From the IMG/VR virus record IMGVR_UViG_3300042934_000628, positions 1 through 45,546 of that record: a stretch of 45,546 nucleotides of DNA; one strand, written 5' to 3'. How positions within the stretch are numbered: the stretch's first letter is position 1; each line of letters starts with the position of its first letter. The position numbers and the translations under genes were made by a program. The DNA is from a virus. Shown here piece by piece: positions 3,103-43,191 of this stretch. The notes beneath the pieces are model-generated. The model searched no databases, was not told the origin of the DNA, and saw nothing but the letters and a program-made list of their open reading frames with translations.

Positions 3103-3237
3103 GGCGCTGCCTGCCTCTCCAGTAAGGCTGTGCCACCAACAGGGCCCCGGGGTGCCACCCGGGGCCCTGTGCTCTCATCCGTAAGAGCAGAGGCGGGCAC
3201 CCCCGAAGGGATGCCCGCCCCGTGTTCCGGCGGATGA
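3103..3237 (-). repeat. Intergenic module copy 5 (hairpin set plus start-associated signal)
   Basis: Seen on the minus strand downstream of the 3238 stop. It begins UGAUCAUCCGCCG, then a GC stem (GGCGGGCAUCCC arm with its complement), then a small hairpin UGCUCU/AGAGCA whose loop (3176-3183) holds the complement of CAUCCG beside the stop (3231-3236). Next is an 11-bp stem at 3140-3150/3159-3169 with loop core GGTGCCAC, then CTGGAGAGG before the next ATG. The same order recurs at 3418-3512, 3911-4030, 4408-4519 and partly 4763-4849. Confidence 0.8.
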
Positions 3238-3417
3238 TCAGTCGTCGTCGTCCACGACCTCAACGTCCGTGCGCGGCACGTACTCTTCCTTGCCGTCATC
3301 GAACTTGACGCGGACGTTCTCGCCGCGCCAGTCGCTCGTGACCAGACCCTGGTCATCGATGTTGCCGCGGAAGATCACGCGGAGTCCCTGGAGGTCCCGG
3401 GGAAGGCTGTTACTCAT
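3238..3417 (-). CDS. Hypothetical protein (59 aa) with acidic tail
   Basis: A 59-aa protein, MSNSLPRDLQGLRVIFRGNI onward, ending in four Asp residues. A small beta-barrel pattern (VRVKFDDGKEEYVPRTDVEV) suggests an SH3/KOW-like fold, which is inference. ATG at 3417 is preceded by TTGGAGAGGATCGATC, the block's start-associated signal. The stop TGATCA begins the next intergenic module. Confidence 0.75.
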   Translation of the reverse strand: MSNSLPRDLQGLRVIFRGNIDDQGLVTSDWRGENVRVKFDDGKEEYVPRTDVEVVDDDD

Positions 3418-3512
3418 GATCGATCCTCTCCAAGTCGGTCATGGGAATGCTCTCATCCGTAGAAGCAAGGGGGCGCACCCTCTTGGGATGCGCCCGATGC
3501 TGCGGCGGATGA
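3418..3512 (-). repeat. Intergenic module copy 4
   Basis: Contains the stop-proximal CATCCG complement (CGGATG on plus), the GC stem GGGCGCACCC/GGGATGCGCCC, the small hairpin with CATCCGTA loop (tgct/agca stem, 3448-3467), and TTGGAGAGG 7 nt before the next start. It lacks the second large GGTGCCACC hairpin found in copies 2, 3 and 5. Confidence 0.8.
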
Positions 3513-3674
3513 TCAGCCGTTCAGTTCGTCTTCCTGCCACTCGTAGTGGTCACGTCCGTACTTCTCGCGGTACTCCGCGTTCAGTCGGTTCACTTCGGCC
3601 TGCGCCGTCTCCTGGCTACGCCACGTGGAGACGTACTCGTCGCAGCATGTCTGCGTGATGATCCAAATCTTCAT
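3513..3674 (-). CDS. Hypothetical protein (53 aa)
   Basis: A 53-aa protein, MKIWIITQTCCDEYVSTWRS onward, with an N-terminal beta strand, adjacent cysteines at 10-11 and a charged helical C-terminus (NAEYREKYGRDHYEWQEDE). It starts 2 nt after the 3677 stop, with GGGAGGCGTGAGC upstream. Such short proteins with KIWIIT/VWVVT starts are common in actinophages. Function unknown. Confidence 0.75.
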   Translation of the reverse strand: MKIWIITQTCCDEYVSTWRSQETAQAEVNRLNAEYREKYGRDHYEWQEDELNG

Positions 3675-3676
3675 GC

Positions 3677-3910
3677 TCACGCCTCCCGCTTCAGCGTCTG
3701 CGTCACTCCGTACAGACGGAACATGCGCTCCGCGTCCAAGTCGAAGTGTGAGTGTTCGGACCTGCCTTTGGCTCGCCCGTGGATCGCGCCACTGATCAGT
3801 CGTCCGTTCTCACGCAACGCGCTGGTGAGCGTGCCTGTGATGACGAACTTCTGCCCATTGGGCGACTGGCGGGTCAGGGTGACTTGATCACCCGCGTTGA
3901 AAGCGTCCAT
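3677..3910 (-). CDS. Hypothetical protein (77 aa)
   Basis: Starts MDAFNAGDQVTLTRQSPNGQ. The AGDQVTL opening suggests a small all-beta (YopX/KOW-like) fold, which is inference only. I chose the ATG at 3910 because TTGGAGAGGCTGATC, the shared start signal, abuts it; an upstream in-frame TTG lies inside that signal. It is followed closely by the 53-aa gene, so the two form one transcript. Confidence 0.75.
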   Translation of the reverse strand: MDAFNAGDQVTLTRQSPNGQKFVITGTLTSALRENGRLISGAIHGRAKGRSEHSHFDLDAERMFRLYGVTQTLKREA

Positions 3911-4030
3911 GATCAGCCTCTCCAAGTGATCACGTGGACATCCGGCGGGGTGCCACCCGCGGGATGCGTTCCATCCGTAGGAACAAGAGGACGCCCGTAC
4001 GAGACGGGCGTCCGATGCTTCGACGGATGA
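3911..4030 (-). repeat. Intergenic module copy 3, with compensatory stem changes
   Basis: Carries the GC stem GACGCCCGT/ACGGGCGTC, a small hairpin GTTCC (3968-3972)/GGAAC (3980-3984) with loop ATCCGTA, and ACGGAT (4023-4028) near the stop that can pair with the loop. The GGGTGCCACCC hairpin and TTGGAGAGGCTGATC follow. The small stem differs from copies 2 and 5 (GCTCT/AGAGC) on both sides, keeping pairing. Confidence 0.8.
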
Positions 4031-4162
4031 TCAGCGGTGCGTGAGATCCCATAGCTTGTCAAGCAGGCGACCCCACTTCATGTGGACGTGCCATCTGAGC
4101 GATGGCCGCCACGGGTCGTCCCTCCAGCGCCGGAACCGCTTCCACGGGCGCAGCGCGGTCAC
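4031..4162 (-). CDS. Hypothetical basic, Trp-rich protein (43 aa)
   Basis: The GTG start overlaps the stop of the 4159-4407 gene as GTGA. The 43-aa product (MTALRPWKRFRRWRDDPWRP at the start) is very basic with six Trp, and ends at the TGATCA of the next intergenic module. The placement between a coupled start and the conserved module supports that it is translated. Function unknown; it could bind nucleic acid or membranes. Confidence 0.6.
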   Translation of the reverse strand: MTALRPWKRFRRWRDDPWRPSLRWHVHMKWGRLLDKLWDLTHR

Positions 4163-4407
4163 TTGTCCTCGAACCCGTAGGACACGCTGTAGCGGAAGGT
4201 GCCGGGACCACCCGACTCAGGGCCGTTGAACGACGCTCCGCCGGATACGCGGAAGGCGCGGGCCGTGCCCAACTCCCGCGCCCACTTGCGCGCTTCGACA
4301 CCGCACGCATACGTGGCCCGGCTGAACATCGCCTCCGGGCCCGTCACGTGCACCCAGTGTGACGAATTGCGCAGTTCGCGGGTGACGGTAAGGGTGTTCT
4401 TGCTCAT
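4159..4407 (-). CDS. Hypothetical protein (82 aa)
   Basis: Starts MSKNTLTVTRELRNSSHWVH. An aromatic, Gly-rich C-terminus (GGPGTFRYSVSYGFEDK) suggests beta structure. ATG at 4407 follows CGGAGAGGCAGTGATC, the shared start signal; the upstream in-frame extension runs through the intergenic hairpins and was rejected. Coupled to the 43-aa gene. Function unknown. Confidence 0.75.
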   Translation of the reverse strand: MSKNTLTVTRELRNSSHWVHVTGPEAMFSRATYACGVEARKWARELGTARAFRVSGGASFNGPESGGPGTFRYSVSYGFEDK

Positions 4408-4519
4408 GATCACTGCCTCTCCGAGAGTGATCTTCCGGGGGTGCCACCCCGGCGCTCTGTCCTGTAAGAGCAAGCCAGCGGCCCCCGGTGCCACGGGGGC
4501 CGCTCGATGCTCCGGCAGA
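4408..4519 (-). repeat. Intergenic module copy 2
   Basis: Contains AGCGGCCCCC/GGGGGCCGCT with a GTGCCAC loop, the small hairpin GCTCT (4454-4458)/AGAGC (4467-4471) with loop GTCCTGTA, a second CCGGGGGTGCCACCCCGG palindrome, and CGGAGAGGCAGTGATC. The loop and the stop-proximal sequence have both changed relative to copies 3-5, and can still form about 4 bp. Confidence 0.75.
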
Positions 4520-4762
4520 TCAGGCCGCGACGGACGCGCGGTGACCCGCGAACCGTCCGTATCCCATCTCCGAGTGCTTTAGACACAGGGTGCCCACCGC
4601 ACCGTTCGTGGGCAGTGCGTCGTGGCAGTCGCCCCACTGGCACTGACCCACGCCCTTGCAAAACCCGCACATGCAGGCCTTGGCCGATGCGCACGACTCG
4701 TGCAGATGCGCGTCCACGCACTTGCCGTTGTTCAGCTTGATGTATCCGTTGTAGTAGCTCAT
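4520..4762 (-). CDS. Cys-rich small protein, probable zinc binding (80 aa)
   Basis: An 80-aa protein beginning MSYYNGYIKLNNGKCVDAHL, with a dense run of cysteines (residues about 15-46: ESCASAKACMCGFCKG, QCQWGDC) and a further LCLKH. The spacing suggests one or two zinc knuckles, which is inference. The start is 3 nt after GGAGAGGCAGTC's core. Conserved signals flank both sides. Function unknown. Confidence 0.8.
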   Translation of the reverse strand: MSYYNGYIKLNNGKCVDAHLHESCASAKACMCGFCKGVGQCQWGDCHDALPTNGAVGTLCLKHSEMGYGRFAGHRASVAA

Positions 4763-4849
4763 GACTGCCTCTCCAGGGTCATGTTGGCTTGCAGGAACAA
4801 GGAAACGGCCCGGGGTGCCACCCAGGCCGCTCGGCCAATCCCGACAGGC
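4763..4849 (-). repeat. Intergenic module copy 1, divergent
   Basis: Keeps CTGGAGAGGCAGTC before ATG and the palindromic CGGCCCGGGGTGCC... stem, and has AGGAACAAGG resembling the small-hairpin 3' arm of copy 3. The stop-proximal CATCCG pairing is not clearly kept. Treated as a weaker family member. Confidence 0.6.
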
Positions 4850-5083
4850 TCAGTTGTTGTCGATGATCACCACGCCGTACGGCGTGCTCACGAAGCGGAC
4901 GATGCCCGCACGGCGGCAGTCCGCCGTGATGTCGGCCCACGTGGAACCCGGCTCGCGCTCCCAGGTGATCTGTCCGGACTCAACCGCGTTGCGCATGGCG
5001 TCCACGTCCGTGGCGCCGAAGCCTCGCAGTTCGTCCGTGCTTGCGTCGGCGTACAGCAGTGCTGCCACCAGCTTGTCATCCAT
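4850..5083 (-). CDS. Hypothetical protein (77 aa)
   Basis: Starts MDDKLVAALLYADASTDELR. A helical N-terminus precedes a C-terminal strand-rich part (GIVRFVSTPYGVVIIDNN). ATG at 5083 is preceded by GTGGAGAGGGGAAATGATC, the shared start signal. It is the first gene of the leftward block, next to the non-coding region. No family recognised. Confidence 0.75.
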   Translation of the reverse strand: MDDKLVAALLYADASTDELRGFGATDVDAMRNAVESGQITWEREPGSTWADITADCRRAGIVRFVSTPYGVVIIDNN

Positions 5084-6094
5084 GATCATTTCCCCTCTCC
5101 ACGGGAATGCCGGCAAATCCATGATCGCAAAACTCATCAGGCCAGCAGGGGAGTGCTGGCACGGCTGGTACTCGCCTTGCCCCTTGGAGCCGACGCCTTG
5201 CGGCGACCAACGGCGGGGCGGTCTCCCGCGCCCCAAGGTCCAGGTTTCATACCGTGCTTAATCCTGCGCAGCGCACCGCGCGCAGGATGTCCCCCCTGCT
5301 GGCTTGACGAGTGACGGGCATCGCGGCCCCTGAATGGCCGCGTAACGGCCCGTCATCGTCTCGTGAGGCTCGATGTCCTCACGGGTCGCCACCTGTGCCC
5401 ACAGGGCTTGTCTCCGGGTGTCCGGAGCCTGATGCCCTGCGCCATGTCCTGGCGCCCTGCCCGTGACTTGTCAGCGGCTGCTGGTCCAACGGGGCCCTAC
5501 TTCAACCGGCCAGGCTGTCCGAAAGCTCAGTGGGACCGAGCAGTGGATGCCCTTGGGCTGTCAAGCTGTTCGAAGCGCTCGAACGCCCTGTGAACACAAG
5601 GTGTCTGACGCTCCGGGATATCTCCCGGTTCCTCCGCTTCTGCGGTGTCGCCGGGCGATGACTAGAGATTGCCTAGTGAGCACGATCGTAGTCAAGCCCT
5701 CTCAGGGAACTTTTCCCAAGATCTTTTGTGTACCCAACTTGACCTGCACTTATGAGGGTTGCCTCACCTCGGAGAGGAATCTCGTTGAGTCCTCAAATGA
5801 CAACGACCGTGGTTGCGGAACGTGAGTCACCTCCTTGTGCCGGGGATGTGAAGATGCCGGACGCACGCTTCCGGTGTGCGCTCGATTCGCACCCGGTGCG
5901 AATCGCATAAATGCACGTCAAGGCCTACCTGAGGCGCATGACGGACCTGTCACGGCCCGGTGCAGAACGGACAGTTGTGCGTCATGGGGCGATCACGCCC
6001 CGTCATCTTCCGGCCCTTCTGGCCGGATTCGGAGTCTTGACGACGAACAGCGATCCTCCGGTGGACAGCTGGGCCGCACCAGGGGTGCCGGCCT

Positions 6095-6134
6095 CGCGCG
6101 CATGCGCGTACGTGTGCGCGTGTACGCGCGCGTA
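6095..6134. other. 40-nt alternating pyrimidine-purine tract (Z-DNA prone)
   Basis: From 6095 to 6134 every pyrimidine is followed by a purine without a break, mostly CG with a few TG and TA steps. A second tract of 23 nt lies at 6306-6328. Such tracts favour left-handed DNA under supercoiling. Both lie inside the hairpin-dense non-coding region. Confidence 0.85.
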
Positions 6135-6137
6135 AGG

Positions 6138-6780
6138 GCTCAGCCTGTGCCGACTGAGGCTGAGCCGCACAGGCGGCCCGCCAGGGCCGCACAGGGCCAC
6201 GCAGTGGCCATGGGTCACCCCCTTCCGCCGTACGCCCCCTCCAGGGGGCTGGCGGTACAGAGAGTCCGGCAGAGAAGGGGGCAGCAGGCGAAGCCTGCCA
6301 CCCCTCGTGTGCGCGTGCGCACGCACGCCATAGGTGGCCCACGGCGTGGGCCACACAGGGCCACCGGCCCTGGTGTGGTGGTGCTCTGACAGCACCACAC
6401 ATAGATGAGGCTGTGCCTGCTGGGGCACAGCCTCATATGTATGTGAGCCACCGGCTCACCCATGTACATGGACAAGGGGGCGAGCACACCATCACCGATG
6501 GTGGGTGAGTCCCCCTCCTTCGATCGGGGGTCAAGAGGTCTCGTCTGAGACCTCAATGTGCCTCTCACCTGCGGTTTTGCACCTGTATGACCCCAGGTGC
6601 TTAAAACCGCCTTGACCCCCGATCCCTGGTCTCCGACCAGGTCTCTGGGGCAAACTCCCTAGTACTTAGGGGCCGCTGCTGGGCGGCCCCGTACTCATAC
6701 CTAAGCGCCCGGGCGAAGGCCCAGGCGCTATCTCCGTGGTGTCCGCCGGACACCCTTTGGCGGCGCGCGGAGGCGCCGCC
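6138..6780. other. Array of about 17 nearly contiguous hairpins
   Basis: Stems in order: 6138-6165 (9 bp), 6173-6190 (7), 6195-6209 (6), 6225-6255 (5+7), 6284-6298 (6), 6334-6354 (9 bp, 3-nt loop), 6357-6371 (6), 6378-6398 (8), 6405-6436 (13 bp, 6-nt loop), 6443-6459 (7, loop ACC), 6460-6471 (perfect palindrome), 6487-6503 (6), 6522-6624 (three-way fold), 6625-6641 (6), 6661-6695 (5+8), 6705-6728 (9 of 10, loop GAAG), 6738-6754 (7, loop GCC), 6759-6780 (8). Loops are short and recurring (ACC, GAA, GAAG, GCC), as in folded single-stranded DNA or RNA. Confidence 0.8.
6522..6624. ncRNA. Three-way-junction-like element
   Basis: An outer 14-bp perfect stem (6522-6535 with 6611-6624) encloses two hairpins. 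The first is AGGTCTC/GAGACCT (6536-6553, loop GTCT). The second is a long arm starting GCGGTTTT GCACCT (6571-6584), pairing with AGGTGC TT AAAACCGC (6595-6610, a 2-nt bulge). Which strand is transcribed is not known. It could be a structured RNA or a DNA cruciform. Confidence 0.55.
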
Positions 6781-6890
6781 TAATGGGGGTTATGTTTTTT
6801 GAAGCTCGCTCGAACTGCTGTTTATTCCCGCATCTTTGGTCAAGAGTTGGCAAAGTCTCTTGAGGGGCCTGTGACCTGGGGGAACGTCAG

Positions 6891-7121
6891 CTATCGATAG
6901 CGGTACGGCCGTCCGTGGACGGCCTTGGAGCGGGTGAGGAGTCGCCCGCCGGTCGTCTGCCGACGACCTCTGAACTTCCAGTTCTCCGGCGGCTGGAAGC
7001 CGGCCGGGTCCTCGGGCATGCACTCCGAATGCACCCAGCGCTCTGAGAGTTTGTCGACAAATCGACCTACGGCGATCGGCCGGAGGCACATGGGACACGT
7101 TCCCGGGAACTTCGCCTGCAT
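6891..7121 (-). CDS. Small zinc-finger-like protein (76 aa)
   Basis: Starts MQAKFPGTCPMCLRPIAVGR. C9 and C12 with H31 and C34 (TCPMC and WVHSEC) form a CxxC...HxxC zinc site of the type seen in short actinobacterial and phage proteins that look like PARP-type or HNH-like finger fragments. The C-terminus is basic. ATG at 7121 has AAAGGG about 10 nt upstream; a longer form from an upstream ATG is possible. It is transcribed leftward, away from the terminase operon. Function unknown; probably a nucleic-acid-binding accessory. Confidence 0.75.
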   Translation of the reverse strand: MQAKFPGTCPMCLRPIAVGRFVDKLSERWVHSECMPEDPAGFQPPENWKFRGRRQTTGGRLLTRSKAVHGRPYRYR

Positions 7122-41130: not shown

Positions 41131-43191
41131 TCAGGCGGCCAAGTCCATACGAAAACGGATGACACCCGGAGTGACAGGCATGCTCGTGACCGTCCCTTCA
41201 GGTGCCGCCGGAACTCGAATGAGCAACCGCGGGTCGATCTTCCCCTCCACCAGCAGTGGAGGCAGGGGGTACGGGTCCAGCAGGGGAGTGCTCTCGCACT
41301 CCGCAAGGATGTCCATGGCCTGCTCGAAGAGGCCGGAGGCCACCCACCGCTGATAGCGGGTCGTGAGCCCCGTCGTCTTCCCGTACTGCTCGGGAAGCTC
41401 CTTCCACGTGCAGCCCGTACGGGCCTTCAGGAGCACCGCTTCGAGCACCTGGCGGTGCGGCAGGCGGTCCTTGCGCTGGCGCTTCTCCGAGCCCTCGAAG
41501 AGGGCCTGTACGCGGCTCCAGGCCGCATCGGTCAGCGTCGGTACGCCGCGGCCCCGCTCGCGGAACCAGGCGGTCAGCGTGTCGTCCGCCCGAACCTTCT
41601 TGGGGACCGCCCCGTTCAGCGTGACCTTCAGGTTCAGCAGGTCGCAGACCTCGGCCCGCTCCTCGGGCGTCATGTCCCGCATCTGCGTGCGGGCCACCTC
41701 GGCCAGGGCCTGGAGATCGTGCGCCCTCTGCTGGGCGAGATCCCCTTCCTTCTGCCACGCCAGGGCCTCGTCACGGAGCTTCACGAGCCCCGCTCGCTCG
41801 TCCTCCAGAGCCTTGGTCGCCTGGGCGACCGCTTCGGGGGACGTGCTCTTCGCGGCCAGGATCATCATGTTGGCGATGGCCTGGTCCTGGGCTTCGATCT
41901 TCTTGTTCAGGTCGTCCACGCGCTCGGCGTGGCCTGCGCCCTGGCCCGTGGCCATGTCCAGCCAGTCGGCTGCCATGGCGGTAAGGCGCTCCGGGTCCTG
42001 AAGGAGGCCGCAGACCTCCGACCAGACCTTGGCCTCCAGGGCGTCGGCGTCCACCTGAGAGCAGCCGCACACCTTGGCCCCGGCATGGGCCTCGATCTTC
42101 CCCGAGCACCGGTACATGCGGCCGGGCCGGTCGCACCGGTCAAGACCGGTGTAGTGCTTGCCGCACGCGCCGAAGACGCGCTTGGACAGCATGTGTACAC
42201 CGGATTCCTCGGCGCTCCTGCGGGAGCGCGCGTTCCGCGCCAGCGCCTTGTTCAGGCGCTCGACCTTGGCCACCGGCCAGAGCCGGGGCAGCTCGATGAC
42301 GACCGTCTGGCCGTTGACGGGCTGGCCGTCACGACCCAGCTTCGTGCCGCCCTTCCATCCGGCGGTGCCCGGGTCGCGATAGACCATCCGGGCTTCCTGA
42401 ATGGCCCGGGACTGGAGCCGGCGCCGGAGGTTGCCGGCGGTCCAGGGCTTGCCGTTCCTGGACCGGAAGCCTTCGGCGTTCATCGCCATCGCCGCCTGGC
42501 GGCAGTTCTTGGACTCGACGACGATCAGGCTCCAGGCCCTCTCCAGGGCCTCCGTCTCGTGGACGACTGCGCAGTGGCCGTCTGCGGGGCAGACGTCCAG
42601 CACCAGCTGGCTTTCGCCCTTGATGCCCTTGTCCTTGATGCGCCAGCCGTACGGGGCGGTCCCTCCCGGGTGCCCGCCCTCCTCGGCCTTCTCCTGGATG
42701 CCGCTCTGCGTGCGGACCCTGATGCGCGTGTACTCCTTGAAGGCGTAGTTCGCCTCGTCACGCATCTGGGCTTCGCCCTCTTCGGTGGTGGTGTCGAAGT
42801 CCTTGTCCACCACGGCCACGGAGATGTTCAGTTCGTCCAGGTCCCATACCCAGCGCCAGAAGACCCGGTCCTTGCGGCCGATGGCCCGCGTCTCGGAGAC
42901 CACGACCACGTCGAAGGGGCGCGGCTCTTGTCGGGCCAACTTCATCAGGCGGGGCAGGTCGTCCCGCTCCTGCCAGGGCAGGGAGCCGGAGACTCCCTCG
43001 TCCTTAAAGGTGTCGACATGAGCCCAGCCCTTGGCGGCGATGTATTTCGCCGTCTTCTTGGCGCTGTAGCTGATGCCGTACCCCTGCCTCTGCTGCTCCG
43101 TGGATACCCGGAGATAGTCCACGGCCCGGAGCCGCCCTGCCTGGGCGGCCCTGTCCGCCACGGCGATGGCGCTCGTGAGAGTGTTGGTCAC
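41131..43191 (-). CDS. int: Large serine integrase with C-terminal IS5-type (DUF4096) domain
   Basis: Site-specific recombinase catalysing attP x attB integration. 686 aa. Serine recombinase domain with nucleophile S30 in DYLRVSTEQQ, DEGVSGS, and a recombinase zinc-ribbon (FGACGK, YRCSG, KVCGC). A coiled coil lies at about 420-480. Residues 551-629 (TLTDAAWSRVQALFEGSEK, RTGCTWKELPEQYG) match the N-terminal DNA-binding DUF4096 region of IS5-family transposases, an unexpected fusion, followed by a 57-residue tail. GTG at 43191 with AAGGGACTGAC upstream. Confidence 0.93.
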   Translation of the reverse strand: MTNTLTSAIAVADRAAQAGRLRAVDYLRVSTEQQRQGYGISYSAKKTAKYIAAKGWAHVDTFKDEGVSGSLPWQERDDLPRLMKLARQEPRPFDVVVVSETRAIGRKDRVFWRWVWDLDELNISVAVVDKDFDTTTEEGEAQMRDEANYAFKEYTRIRVRTQSGIQEKAEEGGHPGGTAPYGWRIKDKGIKGESQLVLDVCPADGHCAVVHETEALERAWSLIVVESKNCRQAAMAMNAEGFRSRNGKPWTAGNLRRRLQSRAIQEARMVYRDPGTAGWKGGTKLGRDGQPVNGQTVVIELPRLWPVAKVERLNKALARNARSRRSAEESGVHMLSKRVFGACGKHYTGLDRCDRPGRMYRCSGKIEAHAGAKVCGCSQVDADALEAKVWSEVCGLLQDPERLTAMAADWLDMATGQGAGHAERVDDLNKKIEAQDQAIANMMILAAKSTSPEAVAQATKALEDERAGLVKLRDEALAWQKEGDLAQQRAHDLQALAEVARTQMRDMTPEERAEVCDLLNLKVTLNGAVPKKVRADDTLTAWFRERGRGVPTLTDAAWSRVQALFEGSEKRQRKDRLPHRQVLEAVLLKARTGCTWKELPEQYGKTTGLTTRYQRWVASGLFEQAMDILAECESTPLLDPYPLPPLLVEGKIDPRLLIRVPAAPEGTVTSMPVTPGVIRFRMDLAA

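Follow-up and report, generated by a model that had tools for sequence, protein, structure and literature searches.

A repeated RNA element with two alternative folds, possibly gated by terminating ribosomes, at gene junctions of Streptomyces podoviruses

A structured RNA element is repeated between small genes on the minus strand of the window, by which we mean the whole stretch of DNA that was analysed, a 45,546-bp virus record. Its homologues carry compensatory changes beyond chance, pointing to a conserved structured RNA, and two mutually exclusive helices that share one strand both covary, which on sequence evidence indicates a bistable RNA. We read the element as a ribosome-gated switch repeated at cistron junctions, the output of which would be RNA processing, access to the next start, or both; to this reading we give slightly less than an even chance.

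The terminase encoded in the window is ~50% identical to the terminases of Beephvirinae podoviruses (the Streptomyces phages WRightOn, Manuel and Immanuel3). Because the window also encodes a serine integrase (41131–43191, minus strand) and a repressor-like HTH protein (219–1007), the virus is probably temperate. Genomes of S. himalayensis, S. composti and two other streptomycetes contain close relatives. The small leftward genes adjoining the terminase probably make up an early operon, since the matching block in lytic relatives contains ArdA-like antirestriction genes; that block in the lytic relatives also has oddly typed tRNA genes (in Manuel, 'tRNA Pro/Ser'). Positions 88–176 of the window (minus strand) form a near-perfect cloverleaf (z −4.0) with a 7-bp D-like stem and an 8-bp anticodon-like stem, without U33. 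ARAGORN, run on the window, did not call this cloverleaf as a tRNA; it may be merely tRNA-like or represent a tRNA that has degenerated. The open frame of the integrase also encodes, at its C-terminal end, an additional DUF4096 domain as in IS4/5-type transposases. Positions 5900–6900, which separate the leftward operon from the rightward one, have few genes, many inverted repeats, alternating GC tracts and a weak, below-threshold resemblance to Scr5676; promoters or an origin are likely there.

Copies of the element in the window

We named the strands of the element, 5' to 3', A (adjoining the stop codon), U1, the central hairpin B, C (directly 3' of B), A' and U1', with U1 upstream and U1' downstream of C. 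Fold 1 is a long imperfect hairpin of ~22 pairs, the base of which, A/A', begins 0–5 nt past the stop codon, and fold 2 is the local hairpin C/U1'. The cleanest example is copy 2 (3448–3515, minus strand), in which the stop codon TGA (3515–3513) is followed by A (TCATCCG, 3512–3506), U1 (AGCA, 3501–3498), hairpin B (3495–3471), C (TGCT, 3467–3464), A' (CGGATGA, 3459–3453) and U1' (GAGCA, 3452–3448). Here fold 1 comprises A/A', U1/C and B, and fold 2 comprises B and the local hairpin C/U1'. Copy 1 (3170–3240, minus strand) begins with the stop codon TGA (3240–3238) and A (TCATCCG, 3237–3231), followed by B, C, A' and U1' (to 3170); its U1/C pairing is imperfect (GAACA vs TGCTC). Copy 3 (3965–4033, minus strand) follows a small ORF of ~43 codons and has C/U1' jointly changed to GTTCC/GGAAC. 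Copy 4 (4453–4524, minus strand) is a variant with CTG.../CAG as A/A' and GGAGCA:TGCTCT:AGAGCG as U1:C:U1'.

A first-pass annotation of this DNA had claimed a common minus-strand layout for the gaps at 3103–3237, 3418–3512, 3911–4030 and 4408–4519. Reading of the gaps bore this out and confirmed the order of parts: stop codon, a CATCCG-like sequence, a GC hairpin, a small stem, often a GGTGCCACC-type hairpin, GGAGAGG and the next start. The weaker fifth copy that it placed at 4763–4849 (copy 5; 4770–4852, minus strand) keeps hairpin B but is degenerate, with an unconvincing A/A' and a score of 19.9 bits (E 0.09). When cores were compared with dinucleotide shuffles, copies 1–4 gave folding z values of −6.6, −4.5, −4.8 and −3.7, with 0 of 200 shuffles as good; the core of copy 5 did not stand out from its shuffles in this way (z −1.1). 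The small stem had been described as jointly changed between copies, and GTTCC/GGAAC is indeed present in copy 3, but GCTCT/AGAGC sits in copies 1 and 4 and not, as proposed, in copies 2 and 5. Copy 2 has GCTTC/GAGAGC, and copy 5 has neither GTTCC/GGAAC nor GCTCT/AGAGC. Two features had been overlooked: the upstream strand U1 (AGCA) also pairs with the 5' arm of the small stem, and a separate hairpin that covaries, hairpin E, presents GGAGAGG in its loop.

Most copies place the Shine-Dalgarno sequence GGAGAGG in the loop of hairpin E, the stem of which varies freely in sequence (z 9.1; types include GATCACT/AGTGATC, CATGGT/ACCATG, CTGCA/TGCAG and TGGCCAA/TTGGCCA). In the window, where all examples are on the minus strand, GGAGAGG is in a CGTGATCA/TGATCATG loop at 3908–3934, with the 3' arm entering the ATG of gene 3677–3910; in a GATCACT/AGTGATC loop at 4405–4432, before the ATG of gene 4159–4407; and, as read from the sequence, in a CATGAC/GTCATG loop at 4760–4783, before the ATG of gene 4520–4762. 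A weaker hairpin E (3415–3443) has CATGA/TCATG flanking GGAGAGG before gene 3238–3417. The same stretch of the copy 2 leader (3415–3443, minus strand) may contain a mini-ORF, MTDLERIDHE-stop, overlapping gene 3238–3417 at its start.

An accessory hairpin D (CCCCGGGTGGCACCCCGGGG type) lies at 3139–3170 (minus strand) in copy 1, between the putative switch and the Shine-Dalgarno region. It is similar in copies 3 and 4 and absent from copy 2. At four other loci with a hairpin D 3' of the element (L033, L019, L044 and L090), two loop classes were seen, UGCCA/UGGCA and (C/G)UGAUNA, the latter with UGA.

Homologues and covariation of the two folds

The first-pass annotation had proposed a covariance-model search as a check, and this uncovered numerous additional copies, in both phages and prophages related to the virus, with significant covariation, the lack of which the annotation had named as refuting. 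A first model, trained on 11 hand-picked copies, found more than 60 copies in relatives, located upstream of the terminase, nearly all on the coding strand and several per phage. This model (R1) gave nothing convincing on the lytic Beephvirinae, the copies of which are divergent in sequence. The nested fold served as the basis of a second model, which lifted the scores of divergent copies (L050 at 1505, from 45.6 to 65.9 bits; L041 at 5234, from 32.2 to 58.7 bits) and found ~90 copies at E < 0.001 in Streptomyces prophages as well as relatives; weak mirror matches aside, every one was on the coding strand. Control contigs sharing merely the motif TCATCCGNCGNNGCATC scored 24.7 bits at best. The TCATCCGNCGNNGCATC pattern in viral contigs had been tried as a family marker, gave mostly chance matches and was retained as a negative control.

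Model matches at E 0.001 or better occurred in 15 of 296 Streptomyces genomes, the weakest of them resembling chance hairpins. We excluded L244 and L246 (long perfect hairpins on both strands) and the weak matches L245, L247 and L248. Three Streptomyces genomes (L235, L236 and L237) have one copy each at ~1500 in a similar context, and the next gene begins MEAQQV.DLIN; these copies are perhaps a conserved prophage remnant. A search of Rfam 15 at the gathering threshold and at an E-value of 5 returned no family, and the best overlapping matches fell far below threshold: the element is an RNA family not listed in Rfam. A distant nucleotide search of the leftward block against phages gave no match, and no description of such an element was found in a search of the open-access literature.

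Partner-swap tests on 71 copies showed a signal for all three helices, with z values of −5.6 for U1–C, −6.1 for C–U1' and −6.3 for A–A' (each 0 of 5000 permutations). The control combinations A–C, A–U1', U1–A', U1–U1' and A–U1 gave no signal in the same copies; one further combination scored, that of C with the A' window, which overlaps U1'. Triplets of U1:C:U1' illustrate the joint changes (GGAGCA:TGCTCT:AGAGCA, GAGCCA:TGGTTC:GAACCA, ACGCA:TGCGT:CACGCG and GGAATAC:GTGTTCC:GGAACA). The helices U1/C and C/U1' share at least three C nucleotides in 65 of 71 copies and, because both claim the same nucleotides, are mutually exclusive.

Covariation by column gave 93.2% paired cells and 225 double-change cells for the nested fold, and 95.9% and 252 for the alternative fold, in an alignment fitted to the C/U1' model and hence biased toward the C/U1' helix, with no bias toward U1/C. 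For either fold the observed covariation was reached by 0 of 500 shuffles, and slid controls likewise failed to match it, which strongly supports the earlier claim of a selected, repeated structured RNA element. Copies within one phage or among relatives are non-independent, and the partner-swap and out-of-sample tests guard against that; in the latter, 11 Streptomyces genome copies lying outside all models gave p 0.001 for C–U1' and p 0.0014 for U1–C.

Three other lines of inquiry were put aside. A generic pseudoknot scan of all loci was too unspecific (~1000 matches), a ribozyme was set aside with no strictly conserved unpaired core across variants, and simple linker or recombination repeats were ruled out because the stems change sequence yet keep pairing.

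The loop of the small hairpin had been said to pair with the stop-proximal sequence as a kissing or pseudoknot interaction. The complementarity is real and covaries, but the pairing uses nearly the whole loop, which speaks against that form of contact. A static pseudoknot in which A/A' and C/U1' coexist would account for the covariation of both these helices and would leave that of U1/C unexplained. We consider it hardly credible, because A' fills the main-type loop almost entirely (0–2 nt to spare), the 4–5 nt loops of lytic relatives are fully used, and for steric reasons both helices are unlikely to form at once. A simpler reading than a closed hairpin with a fully paired loop is a pair of alternative folds.

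The early gaps of lytic phages (WRightOn, Immanuel3, Manuel, FlowerPower, Dennebes, Stella, RosePharie, Kumquat and Abafar) are unrelated in sequence and have the same order of parts: a stop region, a strong hairpin, and a local hairpin with a loop complementary to the stop region (z 5.4, n = 39 gaps). In several of these gaps the stop codon itself is paired (UAGUG/CACUA, UAGCA/UGCUA, UGAAC/GUUCA, UGAGUU/AACUCA), and orthologous gaps show compensated changes, such as TGTGAAG/CTTCATA to CCGTGC/GCACGG. A/A' and the local hairpin are clear in the lytic copies; U1/C is present in some gaps only and is less regular. A shuffle test of the whole architecture, performed gap by gap in the lytic relatives, gave p < 0.05 in 16 of 57 gaps. 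Gaps of phiC31 and R4, which are unrelated Streptomyces phages, had no stop-region/loop signal (z −1.0).

Stop-codon anchoring and possible function

In 63 of 70 copies, 14–19 nt separate the in-frame stop of the upstream gene from hairpin B, which puts the stop ~0–5 nt before A, an adjacency that could come partly from compact genomes and from duplication of a TGA-containing module. Unconstrained folding favoured the nested hairpin (mean 4.6 kcal/mol; 61 of 69 copies). In a thermodynamic prediction that simply forbids pairing, with an energy model that omits tertiary structure and real ribosome geometry, forcing the stop codon and 9 nt beyond it to be unpaired, which mimics a terminating ribosome, brought the local hairpin from a mean probability of 0.12 to one of 0.72, and extending this to 12 nt gave 0.86. 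By the minimum-energy criterion with the stop and 9 nt masked, only 35 of 68 copies flipped.

We propose that the elements form a family of bistable cis RNAs, located where cistrons meet in the leftward (probably early) operon of Beephvirinae and related Streptomyces podoviruses. While the stop codon is free of ribosomes, A is predicted to pair with A' and U1 with C, forming the long imperfect hairpin. A terminating ribosome would cover A and part of U1; C would then take U1' as its partner, and the long hairpin would come apart in its lower half. That is, the element would report translation termination of the upstream gene to the RNA before the next gene. Its output is the least certain step: the long fold may be cut by an RNase III-type enzyme or may keep the ribosome-binding site of the following gene hidden, whereas the form left uncut or open would be the local fold. 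A broader version seems possible but doubtful, namely that at most early-operon junctions the stop codon serves as a sensor and each terminating ribosome resets the RNA, licensing cutting or initiation there, with the layout kept and the sequence rewritten between genera.

That the switch can act on initiation is hinted at most strongly by compact variants (L050 at 1505 and 2024, L249 and L254), in which the Shine-Dalgarno sequence is in the C/U1' loop and overlapped by A', and the local hairpin reaches the start codon. In these variants the switch would act directly on initiation. Such a direct effect is not obvious in the main clade because the Shine-Dalgarno hairpin is ~50 nt further on. 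Sequestration of the Shine-Dalgarno sequence by C was visible by eye in some copies and is not general.

Two partners for C would also follow from precursor and product folds if the elements were ribosome-independent RNase III-type processing sites, as between T7 early genes. A cut in the long hairpin that separates B from C would leave B at the end of the upstream messenger as its 3' cap and C/U1' at the start of the downstream one as its 5' cap. We regard this as the strongest rival, though a rather unlikely one. RNase III favours about two helical turns, and the nested stem has a median length of 22 bp (IQR 21–24) with internal loops. The RNase III sites of the T7 early region (R0.3 to R1.3) are likewise irregular hairpins between small early podovirus genes, and one such gap hairpin (L232, gap at 935; ~1434–1495 of the T7 record) includes the stop codon of gene 0.4 in its lower stem. 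Activity of RNase III and RNase J in Streptomyces (PMC12096830) is also consistent with processing. Cutting does not, however, require a 0–5 nt spacing from the stop or the stop-codon pairing of the lytic relatives. The five usable T7 early gaps showed no stop-region/loop complementarity (z −1.5) and no competing loop-complementary hairpin, whereas the 3' arm of the Streptomyces elements has a covarying second partner.

Hairpin B and the pyrimidine-rich C might instead be leaky intrinsic terminators that grade operon expression, with U1/C lengthening the terminator stem. Strand C averages 4.8 T in the 12 nt after B, B and its pyrimidine-rich tail give terminator-like matches in copies 2, 3 and 5, and the region has 6 such matches where shuffles predict 1.5. 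This explanation nonetheless appears improbable: a run of at least four T after B occurs in only 4 of 71 copies, the operon continues through several copies, and A' and U1', which are downstream of any stop point and transcribed only past it, are equally constrained and strongly covarying. The first-pass annotation had called the element not a simple terminator, in line with these strands, and had allowed it a part in termination; leaky termination at B is a possible additional contribution, not the whole story.

The many copies of a common architecture in one operon, most of them showing the Shine-Dalgarno sequence in a hairpin loop, would also suit sites bound by an RNA-binding protein of the phage or its host, or a put-like RNA that modifies RNA polymerase, the alternative pairings then lying within the recognised fold. 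We judge this highly improbable, given that the helix sequences and most loops vary freely and that the lytic relatives keep the layout alone. Since the sequence varies freely while the layout is kept, a logic of pairing fits better than sequence-specific binding.

Comparison with known systems

The put antiterminator RNAs of HK022 are phage-encoded cis RNAs of ~65–70 nt in early operons. They lie near promoters and have one conserved fold, whereas the Streptomyces copies abut stop codons within the operon.

The closest described elements that we found are the SAS/ESAS of cluster K mycobacteriophages, which are repeated in short gaps before genes, nearly all in one orientation, and contain an inverted repeat and a ribosome-binding-site motif; their function is not known (PMC3203893, PMC12699233). 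The Streptomyces elements resemble them in repetition, position in gaps, orientation, inverted repeat and ribosome-binding-site motif. ESAS, in contrast, consist of imperfect inverted repeats of 17 bp and go with the start codon, and the SAS/ESAS consensus GGGATAGGAGCCC (PMC3203893), which adjoins the start codon and comes with the 17-bp inverted repeat, was absent from the gaps read in the window. The Streptomyces elements are tied to the upstream stop, have three covarying helices and two exclusive folds, and share no consensus with SAS/ESAS.

Single leaders and a small number of coupled gene pairs already provide examples of ribosome-driven RNA refolding. In the trp and erm leaders and in the Min Jou interaction of MS2 coat and replicase, the ribosome masks one strand and an alternative helix forms. 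If the broader version of our reading is true, the stop-codon switch would be a general, cistron-by-cistron sensor of translation termination. A compact, stop-anchored element reused at several gene borders, with its layout kept across genera, would be a general design for coordinating or separating the genes of an operon, and the element could yield small parts for controlling polycistronic messages in Streptomyces. The trp and erm attenuators and MS2 coupling occur once per operon and depend on ribosome stalling or passage in a leader or coding region; in the Streptomyces elements, by contrast, the trigger would be ordinary termination, and the element is repeated at several junctions of one operon.
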